From positions 4,732,501 to 4,796,500 of the forward strand of contig LT629764.1 of the NCBI GenBank assembly GCA_900105225.1: 64,000 bases of DNA. The letters run 5' to 3'. The notes below the pieces were generated by a model, which saw only the letters and a program-made list of their open reading frames with translations, did not search any database and had not been told where the DNA came from. The DNA comes from Paenibacillaceae bacterium GAS479. Lineage in GTDB: Bacteria > Bacillota > Bacilli > Paenibacillales > Paenibacillaceae. Below are positions 1,290 to 40,708 of the stretch, in pieces. The position numbers and the translations under genes are program-made. Every line of letters starts with the position of its first letter. The first letter of the stretch is position 1.

Positions 1290-1790
1290 TCATTGTGTTA
1301 TTCCCTTGTTAGAAGTTGGAGGGAGGGGGTTTCTTTCAGTGATTTCAAGCACCCCTTTGTCGGCTCTTGCCCTGAATGGTCTGGAAAGCTGGTTTACATG
1401 CCACGATTGTGTGCCAAATTCATTGACATTCATGAAGCTCGACAAAGTTCCGTAGCTTGCTCCGTACAAAGGCAGCTCAAAGTCAAACAGCGCATAGGCG
1501 CTGCTGACTCTACCAATCTGATAAGTGAGCTGAAAGCCATAGGACTCGTTCGGAGAAATGTAGAGTAAAAACGGCGGCGGCGGAGCGAAGTCTCCAGAAA
1601 GATTGATAACCTGCATATAAAAAGGGGTCATATTTCTTATGGTGAATCCTCTAGTATCTGCAGGGAGAACGGCACCGCTGTCGGCCTGCTCTGAAGGATC
1701 GGCAAAGAAGCGGATGGCAATGACCAGCAAAATAAACAAAACGAGGACGACTCCTATACCTTTAGAATTGCGGTGTTCAAGTTGTTCCAT
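1290..1790 (-). CDS. Membrane-anchored protein with YjcZ-like N-terminus (paralogue 1)
   Basis: Unknown function, 166 residues. Residues 1-10 are polar, then comes a single membrane segment (VVLVLFILLVIAIRFF) that closely resembles the core of the tiny YjcZ-type transmembrane proteins of spore formers. A roughly 130-residue outer domain follows, with the family pattern GFTIRNMTPFYMQVINLSGD, a proline cluster, and a serine/aromatic region ending in a predicted beta-rich tail. It is the most divergent of five intact paralogues here: the tail runs past the usual end and lacks the TTAPINT motif. The ribosome site AGGAGAAA lies 7 bases before the ATG. No enzymatic motif is seen. The topology (short N-terminus inside, C-domain outside) is inferred. 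Confidence 0.75.
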   Translation of the reverse strand: MEQLEHRNSKGIGVVLVLFILLVIAIRFFADPSEQADSGAVLPADTRGFTIRNMTPFYMQVINLSGDFAPPPPFLLYISPNESYGFQLTYQIGRVSSAYALFDFELPLYGASYGTLSSFMNVNEFGTQSWHVNQLSRPFRARADKGVLEITERNPLPPTSNKGITQ

Positions 1791-1902
1791 ATCAATTTCT
1801 CCTGTTCGGATTGGATTGGCCCCAAAGGGCTAGTCTAGCTTGCCATGCCCTGGGAATAAGCTTAACTAACGACTCCGAAGAGCGGAGCTTGGGGGATGGA
1901 GC

Positions 1903-3681: not shown

Positions 3682-4069
3682 GCGGAGAGTATTAGGGATA
3701 AGCAAGAATACGGCCTATAACTTGGTTAACTTCGGGGAATTTCATATGGTTAGGATCAGGAAGAAGATTCGGATTCCTAGGATTCATAAAGGTTTACAAA
3801 CAAAAAATCGAGACCCCCTTGCGGGGGCCTCTTTCATGGGAGAGGAGAAACCGGACGAAGAGCTTATGGGGAAACGTAAGCCTTCTCCGCGGTGTCTACG
3901 GCATCTCTCGACGCCGATAATTACAGGTTGCTCTAAGACGAGCAAATATATACATGGGAGACGGAAATTTGCTGAAATGATTTCCGATAAGCTGTCGCTC
4001 GGGACGATTTCGATGGTGTACGACCATCATGTGGATAAACTGCCTAAGCTGCCGACAGACTCCAGCTAA
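3644..4069 (+). pseudogene. Chimeric remnant: excisionase-like HTH fragment and possible integrase tail
   Basis: The open frame is not one protein. Its first 13 or so codons are antisense to the broken membrane-protein copy. From about 3683 it reads VLGISKNTAYNLVN, then VRIRKKIRIPR, which resembles the helix-turn-helix of MerR-type excisionases. After a terminator-like hairpin comes an unrecognised stretch. The last part, AEMISDKLSLGTISMVYDHH followed by VDKLPKLP, weakly resembles the C-terminus of a tyrosine recombinase (the GHSSISMTLDTYSHVLP region). The catalytic Tyr context is not preserved. I read this as the scar of a lost integrative element. The HTH match is fair; the integrase match is weak. 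Confidence 0.4.
3810..3835 (+). terminator. Hairpin, terminator-like, inside the remnant region
   Basis: GAGACCCCC pairs with GGGGGCCTC around a TTGC loop, with one mismatch, and is followed by TTTC. It cuts through the apparent open frame, which supports that frame being non-coding here. Confidence 0.55.
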
Positions 4070-7796: not shown

Positions 7797-9063
7797 TCGT
7801 AGAGCCTGGGCTCAGGCGGCGGAGGCGGGCAAAAGCACCGGTTGCAGCGGACAGCACCAGCAATGCCGCGATGAGCCCGGCCATGAGCGGAAGCTGCAGC
7901 AGCAGCGAGCCGCGCAATATGTTTGCCCATGCGCCGGGCTCTTGCAGCAGCTGGGCTGTGAGAGCCCTCCATGCAGGCATATGCGTGCCGCTCGCGGCAA
8001 AGGCTGGCGCTGCTGCTGCCATCAGCGCCTCAAGTGGGCGCCATAGCAGCAGCGCTAAGCCGCCGGCAATCGCGCCGGCCAGCAGGCGCGCGCTTGCTAG
8101 CGGCAGCAGCCGCAGGCCGGTGGCGGAGGTCGCGCCGCCTGCCTGCAGCAGTCCGCAAAGGCCGCCCCAGCCAAGGGCTGCGGCCAAAACAGCCGCCTGC
8201 AGCATAGCGGCTGGCTCTGGAGCATGCCAGCTGGCGAGCGAGGCGGCGCCAAGATGCACCTCTACAGCTGCGTTCAGCGCTGGGCCGTGCAGGGCGGCAG
8301 GCAGCAACGGCTGCAATAGACGCAGTAGGACAGAGGCGAGAATGATTAGGCCGCCGGTTGCCATTAATTGTTGGACGGCTCCGGCGACGCCGTCTCCAAG
8401 TGCTTTTCCGAAGCTGCGGCCATCTCTATTTCTGCCATCTTCCATCGCTTGTAATGTGCGTGAAAGCAGCGAGCCGCTCCCAGTGGATTCATGGAGGTTC
8501 TTTTTTTCTGGAGAAGAAGAAGGGGCGTCACTTGTCCCCTGGTTGGAAAGGGCTTCGCCAGTGCGGGGAGCGGCCCAAGCGCTTAGAAGGCCGGCAAGAA
8601 GTGAACCGAGCCAGATGATCGGCAGCAGAAGTAGGCCGTACAGTGGTTGATGTAGGAAACCCGCTCCAAGCACAACAATGAGGAAAAGTGGATTCGGCGA
8701 ATGGGCCAAAGCAAGTAAACGCTGCCCCTGGCGCTGGGTCAGCCGACCGGTCGTAACGAGCTTCCCTGTGGCTGCAGCGCCTGCTGGAAAGCCGCTTGTC
8801 CAACCTTGAACGAGCGCCCAACCAGCCGATCCAGGCAGGCGGAGTAGCCGCATAAGAGGGGAAAGCAGGACGCCAAGGCCGTCTGCAAGCCCGAAGGCCA
8901 GCGTCAACTCGGCAAGCACAAGAAAAGGCAGCAAGGCAGGAAAAACAAAGTTCCACCACAAGGAAAGGCCGGCCAGCGAAGCCTGGAACGCCTCGGACGT
9001 GCCGCTGACAATAGCGACAACAAGCAGGATGGCGGCACAAGCGGTAATGAGGGAACGAAACAT
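7789..9063 (-). CDS. ylbJ: Sporulation integral membrane protein YlbJ
   Basis: Polytopic membrane protein of the nucleoside-recognition (Gate) superfamily. In B. subtilis YlbJ belongs to the sigma-E regulon and is needed for proper spore formation. About 424 residues with many hydrophobic helices. Recognisable segments are SLWWNFVFPALLPFLVLAEL, GWTSGFPAGAAATGKLV (the conserved GxPxGA loop), LLALAHSPNPLFLIVVLG and LILASVLLRLL. The ATG at 9063 has AAGGAGGATC before it and starts MFRSLITAC; the longer frame adds 14 residues without a good site. A polar Ser/Lys-rich loop lies near residues 190-225. It is inserted on the opposite strand in the ylb cluster, as in relatives. Confidence 0.88.
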   Translation of the reverse strand: MFRSLITACAAILLVVAIVSGTSEAFQASLAGLSLWWNFVFPALLPFLVLAELTLAFGLADGLGVLLSPLMRLLRLPGSAGWALVQGWTSGFPAGAAATGKLVTTGRLTQRQGQRLLALAHSPNPLFLIVVLGAGFLHQPLYGLLLLPIIWLGSLLAGLLSAWAAPRTGEALSNQGTSDAPSSSPEKKNLHESTGSGSLLSRTLQAMEDGRNRDGRSFGKALGDGVAGAVQQLMATGGLIILASVLLRLLQPLLPAALHGPALNAAVEVHLGAASLASWHAPEPAAMLQAAVLAAALGWGGLCGLLQAGGATSATGLRLLPLASARLLAGAIAGGLALLLWRPLEALMAAAAPAFAASGTHMPAWRALTAQLLQEPGAWANILRGSLLLQLPLMAGLIAALLVLSAATGAFARLRRLSPGSTSR

Positions 9064-35372: not shown

Positions 35373-36989
35373 TCAGTTCCAGCCAGGAAGCCTGCGATAT
35401 TGAATTGCTTCCGCTACATGGGAAGTCTCTATAGCAGAACAACCTTCCATATCAGCAATTGTGCGCGAAAGCTTCAAGATTCGGTCATGAGCCCGCAGGC
35501 TGATGCCGAGTTCGTCAAAAGCCTGCTGCAGCAGGCGGGTCGCTTCCGGCTTGAGGCGTGCAGCTCGGCGCAGTGAGCTCCCCGATAGCTCACTATTCCA
35601 TAGAACGCCGGTCATAGACTGGCGTTCTTGTTGTGCTTGGGCAGCACGCTGGACAAGCTGCTGCATATCGGCTGTGCTCATCCCGGCTTTTGCGCTGTCG
35701 AGGGACATTGGACGCTGCACCTCGATCAGCAGATCGATTCGGTCGAGCATCGGCCCAGATATGCGAGAGCGATAACGGTCTATTGCTGATTGCGAACAGG
35801 AGCATTCAGGCTGACCCTGCGTTGTATGAGCCGCCCCAAAATATCCACAAGGACATGGATTCATCGAAGCTGCTAGTTGAAAAGAGGCCGGAAAGCGGAA
35901 TACGGCGCGGGCCCGCGCCAAAGTGACTTCTCGGTCTTCCAGCGGCTGACGCAGCACCTCCAGCACTGAACGTGGGAATTCAGGCAGCTCATCGAGGAAA
36001 AGAACGCCGCGATGCGCCAGCGTCACCTCGCCTGGTCGGGGAATAGATCCACCGCCAACCAAACCTCCCGCCGAAATCGTATGATGAGGGGTGCGGAAGG
36101 GCCTTTGCGTAATCAGCGTGTCCAACCGGGGAAGTTTACCGGCTACGCTGAAAATTTTGGTCACCTCAAGCGACTCCTGCACGGTCATAGGCGGCAAGAT
36201 GCCTGGCAGTCTGCGGATCAGCATTGTTTTGCCGGTGCCTGGGGACCCCGACATCAGCAAATTGTGGCGACCAGCTGCTGCAATCGCTAGTGCTCGCTTT
36301 GCGGCATGCTGCCCAAGCACTTCTACATAGTCAAGCTGTACTTCACTGGATAGTGGAGGGTTAGAGGCTATGGCATCAATGCCGGAATCCGAGTTATCCG
36401 AGCTCTTAGCTACTTCAAGGCGGCCATGCCAGAGCATATCTTTCCATCCTAAATCCCCACGGCAGCAAGCCGCCAGCTGCGTCAAGCTCTGTGCCGCGTA
36501 AACTTTCATGCCGCCGATCAACGCTGCTTCGGCTGCATTGCCTGCAGGCAACAGCACCTTTGTCATGCCGAGACGCCTTGCTTCTTCCACCATAGGCAAT
36601 ACGCCAGGCACTTTGCGCAGCTCTCCGCTCAGCGCCAGCTCCCCGATAACGAGCATATCCTCAAAATGCCGTTCCTCTAATTGCCCGCTGGCGGTGAGAA
36701 TTGCTGCAGCGATGGCTAAATCATAAGCTGTACCTTCCTTGCGAATATCTGCTGGTGCGAGGTTCACCGTAATGCGCTGCATCGGAAACTGGAAGCCGCA
36801 ATTACGCAGAGCCGCGCGCACACGCTCCACCGATTCCCGCACGGATGGATCTGGCAATCCAACGATATGAATTTGTGGTAAACCGCTCGCCAGATCAACC
36901 TCAACGGCGATCGCGCAGCCATCGACTCCTTGCACGCTTGCGCTTGTGAATTTGCTATAGGACATGGATTTGCTATAGGACATAGACAT
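35373..36989 (-). CDS. comM: YifB/ComM family Mg chelatase-like AAA+ ATPase
   Basis: ComM-type branch-migration helicase homologue, which helps integrate transforming DNA in competent bacteria. It is 538 residues from the ATG at 36989. The N-terminal lon-like domain (SASVQGVDGCAIAVEVDL ... IHIVGLPDPSVRESVERV) is followed by an AAA+ core. Walker A is LMSGSPGTGKTMLIRRLPG; then come FRTPHHTISAGGLVGGG, Walker B RGVLFLDELPEF, ASMNPCPCGYFG with a cysteine cluster, and the C-terminal Mg-chelatase-like helices. An 18-base tandem duplication gives MSYSKS MSYSKF at the N-terminus, so a later ATG (36965) is also possible. A hairpin covers its ribosome site. It is opposite to its neighbours. Confidence 0.93.
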   Translation of the reverse strand: MSMSYSKSMSYSKFTSASVQGVDGCAIAVEVDLASGLPQIHIVGLPDPSVRESVERVRAALRNCGFQFPMQRITVNLAPADIRKEGTAYDLAIAAAILTASGQLEERHFEDMLVIGELALSGELRKVPGVLPMVEEARRLGMTKVLLPAGNAAEAALIGGMKVYAAQSLTQLAACCRGDLGWKDMLWHGRLEVAKSSDNSDSGIDAIASNPPLSSEVQLDYVEVLGQHAAKRALAIAAAGRHNLLMSGSPGTGKTMLIRRLPGILPPMTVQESLEVTKIFSVAGKLPRLDTLITQRPFRTPHHTISAGGLVGGGSIPRPGEVTLAHRGVLFLDELPEFPRSVLEVLRQPLEDREVTLARARAVFRFPASFQLAASMNPCPCGYFGAAHTTQGQPECSCSQSAIDRYRSRISGPMLDRIDLLIEVQRPMSLDSAKAGMSTADMQQLVQRAAQAQQERQSMTGVLWNSELSGSSLRRAARLKPEATRLLQQAFDELGISLRAHDRILKLSRTIADMEGCSAIETSHVAEAIQYRRLPGWN

Positions 36990-36996
36990 GACAAAA

Positions 36997-37029
36997 AGCA
37001 CCCTCCCCAAATAAATGGGCGAAGGTGCT
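36997..37029 (-). promoter_or_regulatory. Terminator-like hairpin enclosing the comM ribosome site
   Basis: On the minus strand AGCACCTTCGCCC pairs with GGGGAGGGTGCT (one mismatch and a G-T pair), followed by TTTTT. The right arm contains the only SD-like sequence (GGGGAGGG), about 12 bases before the comM ATG. It could act as an attenuator or as an RNA switch that hides the SD. Confidence 0.55.
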
Positions 37030-37179
37030 TCCTCACTTCCCGGAAATTCAATATTCAGGTACAGAATAGGCTAGAAGGGGGAAAATGTCAACAAAAGCTC
37101 CATTTATAACCATTTTAACGACAGCAAAAAAATTTTTTCCCAATGGAGCGCTTTTTTACGCGAAGCATGTCTCAGGATG

Positions 37180-39393: not shown

Positions 39394-39417
39394 TCCATTT
39401 ATAGAAGACTGGAAGGC

Positions 39418-39462
39418 AAGCAGCCTTCTTCTCCTAACTAGGGGAAGAAGGCTGCTTTTTTT
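39418..39462 (+). terminator. Terminator after sucCD
   Basis: AAGCAGCCTTCTTC and GAAGAAGGCTGCTT make a 14-pair stem followed by seven T residues in all. Confidence 0.93.
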
Positions 39463-39580: not shown

Positions 39581-40708
39581 ATGTTTGACTTATATGAACG
39601 AGAATTGAATAACGGAGAACGTGAGCGAGCACGCGCGTTTCTCATTAGCATGCATGAAACGCCTGGAATCGGATGGCAGTCTTTAAGCCGTGTTATGAAT
39701 GCTGGCTGCTGGAGCTGTGATCTGCTGAGTACGGACCAGTTGGAACGAATCGGCATTCGGCAGGGACCGGCTGCAGAAGCGGCGCGCCGTTGGTCGGAGG
39801 GGTTCACACCGGACTGGGAAGCTGCGTTTGCTGCTCTTGGTGGGAAAAGAATAACTTTCCTCGACCCTGATTACCCGGAGCTTTTGAGACAGATTCCACA
39901 GCCTCCTTGGGTACTTTATGCGGTAGGACGATTGGAACTTTTAGAAGAGCCATGTTTGTCTATTGTCGGAACCCGTAACCCTACGGCGTACGGCAGGCAA
40001 GGGGCGTTAAGCTTCTCGGCAGATTTGGCCAGAGCTGGATATACGATTGTGAGCGGTATGGCCAAAGGGATAGACGGTTTGTCCCATACCGCTGCACTTG
40101 ATGCTGGTGGGGGTACAATCGCCATCTTGGGAACTCCTGTTGATACGGCATATCCGCCGGAGAATCGTGCTCTATATCGCAGGATAGCTCGCGAAGGGCT
40201 GCTCCTCTCGGAATTTCCGCTTGGAACTCCGGTCAAGCCGGGGATGTTTCCTCAGAGGAATCGGATTATTGCGGGATTATCCCTTGGAACAGTTATTATT
40301 GAAGCTGCTTCCGGCAGCGGTTCGCTCATTACAGCAGATCAGGCGCTGGAGATGAACCGTGAAATCTACGCGATGCCCGGCCCGATTAACTCACCCAAGA
40401 GTGAAGGCTGTAATATGCTGATTCGTGACGGAAGAGCCCGTCTAGTTACTCGAGGAGAGCAGGTCGACAGTGATTTTCAGCATCTCTCGATGATGAGACG
40501 AACGCCTCTGCAGTCATCTCAGCATGAGAGTCCGCTTACGGCGGAAGAGCTCCAAATCTATACCCTGATACAAGATGAGCCACGTTCAGCGGATAAGCTG
40601 TACGAGGCTTCGGGCATCGCTTTTGGACTTTTACAGACAGTTCTGATAAATTTATGTTTAAAACGTAAGATTGAACTGCACAACGGTTCCATATATATGG
40701 CATTGTAG
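39581..40708 (+). CDS. dprA: DNA-processing protein DprA (Smf)
   Basis: Loads RecA onto incoming single-stranded DNA during transformation, 375 residues. N-terminal SAM-like region (to about 70), then the Rossmann-type DprA core: CLSIVGTRNPTAYGRQGALS, YTIVSGMAKGIDGLSHTAAL, GGTIAILGTPVDTAYPPEN, FPQRNRIIAGLS, SGSGSLITADQAL, MPGPINSPKSEGCNMLIRDG. A winged-helix-like C-terminus follows (LTAEELQIYTLIQDEP). Together with comM and the nuclease lipoprotein it suggests natural-transformation capacity, though the uptake pilus genes are not in the window. Confidence 0.95.
   Translation: MFDLYERELNNGERERARAFLISMHETPGIGWQSLSRVMNAGCWSCDLLSTDQLERIGIRQGPAAEAARRWSEGFTPDWEAAFAALGGKRITFLDPDYPELLRQIPQPPWVLYAVGRLELLEEPCLSIVGTRNPTAYGRQGALSFSADLARAGYTIVSGMAKGIDGLSHTAALDAGGGTIAILGTPVDTAYPPENRALYRRIAREGLLLSEFPLGTPVKPGMFPQRNRIIAGLSLGTVIIEAASGSGSLITADQALEMNREIYAMPGPINSPKSEGCNMLIRDGRARLVTRGEQVDSDFQHLSMMRRTPLQSSQHESPLTAEELQIYTLIQDEPRSADKLYEASGIAFGLLQTVLINLCLKRKIELHNGSIYMAL

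Follow-up and report, generated by a model that had tools for sequence, protein, structure and literature searches.

comM belongs to a family of predicted attenuators that links DNA-uptake genes in Paenibacillales

Why should comM lie behind an RNA hairpin that appears to hide the only ribosome-binding site of the gene? The question arises from a 64,000-nt stretch of the Paenibacillaceae bacterium GAS479 genome (contig LT629764.1, positions 4,732,501 to 4,796,500; hereafter the window), in which comM occupies positions 35373–36989 of the minus strand, counted from the first ATG. The profile matches of its product, an AAA ATPase, place it in the YifB/ComM family (TIGR00368, 564.5 bits against a curated cut-off of 362.4; Mg_chelatase, 296.2 bits). 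The start of the gene (about 36950–36989, minus strand) carries a tandem duplication in which ATGTCCTATAGCAAAT occurs twice; the resulting N-terminus is MSMSYSKSMSYSK, and several start codons are possible.

An earlier note on this DNA had described a strong terminator-like stem with the only Shine-Dalgarno (SD)-like sequence of comM in its 3′ arm, followed by five U residues. Folding bears this out: the minus strand from 37029 to 36997 folds at −21.7 kcal/mol (z −6.16), a stability reached by none of 200 dinucleotide shuffles, and the plus strand of the same region at −16.9 kcal/mol. With up to three mismatches allowed, this hairpin sequence is present at a single place in the window (shuffles, 0). 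The terminator hairpin, as delimited by folding and covariation, spans 36997–37030 (minus strand) and contains GGAGG (37002–37006), the sole SD-like sequence ahead of the comM ATG, at a long, hand-counted spacing of 12 nt. Behind the hairpin come five U (36993–36997), then GUC and the ATG at 36989–36987. A consensus match to a sigma-A-type promoter, TTGACA-17-TATTCT, lies at 37063–37091 on the same strand; over 6 kb it is the only such site, against 3.8 in shuffles, and is therefore no evidence by itself. Thus, in a leader of about 65 nt, a U-run terminator sits between a promoter-like site and the start codon, the arrangement expected of an attenuator.

The 5′ arm of this terminator can alternatively pair with the sequence immediately upstream. 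When the leader is folded without the 3′ arm, the best structure combines GGG/CCC with GAGG-AAGCA-CCUU (−7.1 kcal/mol; z 0.17, a stability no greater than that of shuffles), and the entire leader folds into the terminator (−27.5). The putative antiterminator hairpin (37017–37041, minus strand), delineated by the fold and by covariation of its core, comprises GAGG (37034–37031), the loop AAGCA (37030–37026) and CCUU (37025–37022), below which an outer helix GGG/CCC (37041–37039 with 37019–37017) does not exceed shuffles. Because the small upstream hairpin uses the 5′ arm of the terminator, the two structures are mutually exclusive. This alternative hairpin, like its sharing with other genes, was absent from the earlier note.

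Both structures recur in relatives. Searching with the protein in place of the RNA located comM in 39 of 40 family genomes, and the hairpin pair is present in all their comM leaders, 36 under the strict rule and three in a shifted register. The 30 loci retrieved first all carry the strict pair (26 directly and four after re-anchoring); six of the remaining nine do so as well, and the three deviating leaders (G034, G043 and G013) keep AAGCA and the terminator with the stem slipped by one, as GAGG-AAGCA-CCCU. The comM leader of G053 likewise departs from the strict rule, with AAGCA present and the stem slipped by one. Searching upstream of comM for five-nucleotide loops of whatever sequence returned AAGCA at 30 of 30 loci and no other. 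In 27 of these 30 leaders an SD match of at least 5 nt lies in the 3′ arm of the terminator and the U-run is no more than 14 nt from a comM start; in the remaining three the match is 4 nt. The earlier note had proposed that its reading would fail if the stem were not conserved; on these counts the terminator hiding the SD just before the ATG is conserved.

Of the 30 comM leaders, 28 have a promoter-like site that agrees with the consensus at 10 or more of 12 bases and lies no farther than about 110 nt upstream, against a mean of 0.6 and a maximum of 6 in mononucleotide shuffles. The near-consensus promoter suggests, by comparison of sequences, that transcription of comM may start freely and that control would be exerted in the leader. 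Within the leader, (A/G)AGG pairs with the CCUU just downstream around the loop AAGCA, and the 5′ arm CACCUUC is nearly invariant, likely because it has two pairing partners; the 3′ arm varies within pairing. For the terminator helix, pairing in the first nine comM leaders taken alone did not go beyond shuffles (95.9% vs 94.6%; 88 of 500), because most columns are invariant. The outer helix is not claimed, its mean of 4.09 bp comparing with 3.73 in shuffles (maximum 4.32). One stretch, L115 (G141), has the comM leader twice at a distance of 741 bp (1032–1119 and 1773–1860, minus strand), and what follows the upstream copy is just a short, broken start of comM.

A second copy of the switch lies in the window itself, at 39411–39462 on the plus strand between sucD and dprA (39581–40708, plus strand; PF02481, 257.5 bits). 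Here the predicted antiterminator hairpin GGAAGGC-AAGCA-GCCUUCU (39411–39429) has an arm in common with the 5′ arm of the terminator hairpin (39418–39457), which is followed by a U-run (39456–39462). The truncated leader folds into the antiterminator at −13.2 kcal/mol (z −3.2), making it stronger than that of comM, and the full leader into the terminator at −36.5 kcal/mol (z −6.6). We took this U-run terminator, located between sucD and dprA, as the counterpart of the comM arrangement, any dprA promoter ahead of it being putative. In dprA leaders retrieved by gene order alone from 20 genomes, the pair was found in all 20 (16 in the first stretches and the other four in wider ones), with stems of GGC/GCC, GGU/ACC and GAC/GUC closing loops of AAGCA, AGGCA and GGGCA.

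The element extends beyond these two genes. When comM leaders were built into a covariance model (R1), 213 of the 245 genomes in the family gave a match with an E value of 0.1 or better, some of these matches lying elsewhere than at comM. Its second-place matches, together with those of a broader model (R2), placed the element before an HRDC-domain gene (identified by PF00570), comEC (PF03772), a pilus operon and others. For comEC the strict pair was present at 16 of 30 loci, with AAGAA (14), AGGAA (1) and AAGCA (1) as the loops and no other pentaloop, on stems that include GAGG/CCUC, AUGG/CCAU and AAGG/CCUU. The other 14 loci failed the strict rule; several resemble the element by eye, and some of the stretches may stop short of the leader. 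In the genome of the window the comEC copy lies farther upstream, in L300. The pilus operon is Tad-like and carries the element in its leader. Its first gene is related to CpaE/MinD-like ATPases, with no Pfam match in the genome of the window and a CbiA match for the homologue in G175; in the genome of the window the operon also encodes a T2SSE ATPase, two T2SSF proteins, an A24 prepilin peptidase and a TadE-like protein scoring just under the cut-off. The element also precedes some genes assigned by eye to SLH-domain or secreted proteins.

Several looser occurrences were recorded alongside these. The element or something similar is present in L390, L223, L239, L246, L219 and L104, where the genes behind it, mostly named by eye, include YabE-like, SLH-domain and neutral-protease-like genes (the last about 350 nt away) and one with a weak DnaD_N match. 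The recA–recX interval of the genome of the window (L306) holds a terminator with AAGCA and an alternative stem of only about 3 bp; this terminator has relatives in the genus, and its membership of the family is doubtful. In family f9 (G252, G259, G263 and G266) the homologues of the HRDC gene are short (the two examined encode 211 and 215 aa), and the profile match crosses in-frame stops.

Across the order, 135 of 149 genomes have an R2 match with an E value of 0.01 or better. Among 17 order loci examined, 16 of them from other families, the switch was present in 15, where the gene behind it was comM, comEC or of HRDC type; it was likewise present in 14 of 20 further weak or unusual matches with genes named by eye. 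At the level of the class, R2 matched 17 of 200 genomes, 16 of which belong to the family of the window; the sole match outside it, G459, gave two hits, both lacking the antiterminator stem.

What is constant across these leaders is the loop. Over the genes its consensus is (A/G)(A/G)G(C/A)A, with the stem letters changing in compensation; labelled rows with other loops (4 of 53 for comM, 4 of 45 for HRDC) we take for other registers or chance. We also surveyed 864 kb of the genome of the window (the window together with 40 grid-spaced stretches of 20 kb each) for hairpins with a 4-bp stem competing with a terminator. Among 18 pentaloop double structures AAGCA occurred four times, before comM, dprA, comEC and the HRDC gene, two of these places having been known beforehand and the window having been included deliberately; the other 14 pentaloops occurred once each, so that AAGCA alone recurs. 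Non-pentaloop double structures occupied 60 places, with no loop seen more than twice. A looser scan beside all terminator-like sites was too noisy to give a clear excess (122 vs 112 in controls; pentaloops, 21 vs 13.8), and the stricter rule was used instead; an open pentaloop scan also picks up chance loops in coding regions. The terminator scan additionally met CRISPR-array-like repeats at about 8400–8700 (plus strand) of L294, in the same genome.

A fixed loop on varying stems suggests, as far as sequence comparison reaches, a factor that reads the loop. The strongest rival is an attenuator working kinetically, in which the hairpins compete, elongation speed or general factors set read-through and nothing reads the loop. 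Such a device could partly account for the constancy, as the nucleotides of the loop also pair at the base of the terminator (AAGCA/UGCUU, AAGAA/UUCUU). The persistence of (A/G)(A/G)G(C/A)A before several unrelated genes and on many stems, together with the solitary recurrence of AAGCA in the genome sample, argues against it, and we consider it unlikely.

The stems themselves covary. In a set of 36 distinct 17-mers covering six classes of gene, antiterminator cells were paired in 84.3% of cases vs 64.7% in shuffles, double-change cells numbered 50 vs 15.5, and the covariation score was 0.604 vs 0.220, each value being reached in 0 of 500 shuffles; compensating changes were found at all six stem pairs. 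This set was partly chosen with the model built from comM leaders, which favours GGAAGCACC, and excludes one misregistered dprA row (L193:330–346). At the fourth stem pair, 28 leaders drawn from several genes have A-U (11), G-C (11) or G-U (six), and in none is the pair broken; the terminator helix in the same leaders has 34 double-change cells vs 10.4 in shuffles (0 of 500). The predicted attenuator is thus backed by covariation of a mutually exclusive upstream structure. These changes speak against a fixed low-expression device, in which the terminator and the hidden SD would simply keep comM low with no regulated opening. The far greater stability of the full leader as terminator is consistent with such a device, but a fixed terminator would not need a conserved and covarying upstream strand, and we regard this explanation as improbable.

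If a factor reads the loop, the HRDC-domain protein, whose own gene carries the switch, might be the antiterminator. The switch precedes its gene in several families of the order, and the HRDC profile matches 147 of 149 order genomes, a count that includes RecQ-type HRDC matches. Against this, G023 has only a RecQ-like HRDC match yet carries a strict comM switch (L121, L406), and G013, G043 and G053 have no full-length HRDC orthologue yet keep AAGCA in the shifted register. These four switch-bearing genomes argue against the HRDC protein as the regulator, a role that we hold to be very improbable. A sequence profile of the protein searched against the PDB gave as best matches the HRDC domains of RecQ/WRN-type helicases. 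At class level, a query with its N-terminal part found 16 of 200 genomes, all in the family of the window, so that co-occurrence with R2 has no power there. Least probable of all is an ordinary terminator or insulator against the transcription of neighbouring genes: the dprA copy does follow sucD immediately, where it can terminate sucCD transcripts, but the comM copy stands behind comM's own promoter-like site and faces comM.

We therefore favour a two-state attenuator in the comM leader, operated by a loop-reading trans-acting factor that is shared with the dprA, comEC, pilus and HRDC genes, and judge this reading likely. Comparison of leaders shows both helices, their conservation, the shared loop and the near-consensus comM promoter. 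In the OFF state the terminator hairpin would form and RNA polymerase would halt at the U-run; in any comM mRNA that reads through, the SD would remain paired. In the ON state the AAGCA-loop hairpin would capture the 5′ arm of the terminator, so that transcription would continue and the ribosome site would be free. The ON hairpin would be stabilized by the trans-acting factor, most likely an RNA-binding protein that reads (A/G)(A/G)G(C/A)A and would respond to a signal. We infer a shared factor because the same loop on changing stems precedes several genes, and this factor would induce comM, dprA, comEC, the Tad-like pilus operon and the HRDC gene together.

In the HRDC, comEC, dprA and pilus-operon leaders examined, the distance from the terminator down to the start codon is mostly greater, and the act common to the family would therefore be the choice between termination and read-through. 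Strong promoter-like sites precede only 14 of 40 HRDC leaders. In comM, with the SD inside the 3′ arm of the terminator, one refolding would release both transcription and translation. comM is in this sense the double-locked member of a Paenibacillales family of predicted attenuators that links DNA-uptake genes.

In a few model species, competence is known to be controlled mainly through transcription or sigma factors. If one RNA switch is shared by dprA, comEC, comM and a Tad-like pilus operon, DNA uptake would be coordinated in a different way. In Liberibacters, Tad pili have been linked to DNA uptake (PMC8513845). The wider proposal, to which we give an even chance, is that a previously undescribed RNA-binding antiterminator that reads the loop coordinates DNA uptake and recombination (comEC, dprA, comM and the Tad-like pilus) in Paenibacillales, that these bacteria switch competence once transcription is under way and not through a competence promoter factor, and that comM adds a simultaneous translation lock. 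If true, the switch family would offer an entry into the competence of Paenibacillales: it predicts a co-regulated gene set, its hairpin could serve as bait RNA for the regulator, and the leader could serve as a reporter for the inducing condition.

None of 4227 Rfam families reached its gathering score at either the comM or the dprA leader; sub-threshold scores included 20.6 of 44.3 bits for Ref64 and 20.6 and 20.1 of 54 for PyrR. The only Rfam match in the window lies elsewhere, at the ylbH leader (3800–3892, plus strand; RF00516, 71.8 bits). Searches of the open-access literature gave no paper that, by title or the start of the abstract, describes the element, subscription papers being mostly outside this search. 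A transcriptome study of Paenibacillus riograndensis screened, according to the portion consulted, only 5′ leaders longer than 100 bp (PMC5670726) and would thus miss a leader of about 65 nt.

Among known systems, the targets of ANTAR proteins (EutV, NasR, AmiR) come close. As described in the sections consulted, they too present a small conserved-loop hairpin that overlaps the 5′ strand of a terminator, and one element serves several genes (PMC3369931, PMC3369936). The ANTAR loop is read by a protein (same sections); here a protein reader is our proposal. The ANTAR element consists of two hairpins with hexaloops bearing A at position 1 and G at position 4 (same sources), unlike the single pentaloop hairpin here; comM leaders leave little upstream room for a second one, and none appears in the fold of the comM leader of the window. 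We rejected an ANTAR target because the loop in strict cases has five letters, (A/G)(A/G)G(C/A)A, and the shifted comM register would give AAGCAC, with no G at position 4.

The CAT/RAT elements bound by LicT, SacY and BglG likewise oppose an antiterminator hairpin, of about 25–30 nt and stabilized by the protein, to a terminator, and their stems contain two asymmetric internal loops, according to the excerpt consulted (PMC3369936). In the element described here the conserved part is a short stem capped by an invariable apical loop, and it precedes DNA-uptake genes where RAT precedes sugar genes. It was rejected as a RAT element because its conserved stem is uninterrupted; comM may have one internal loop, below the unproven outer helix. 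In riboswitches that both terminate transcription and hide the ribosome site, one hairpin may control both steps, as proposed for comM; the comM leader differs from them in having no large aptamer, a length of about 65 nt and no Rfam family at gathering score. The main text of a genome-wide attenuator survey, in the parts consulted, does not mention competence, dprA or Paenibacillus, and describes attenuator 'regulons' in which, as here, one terminator-based element precedes non-homologous genes (PMC2965389). The mechanism is of a known kind; what appears to be new is the family, along with its loop and gene set.
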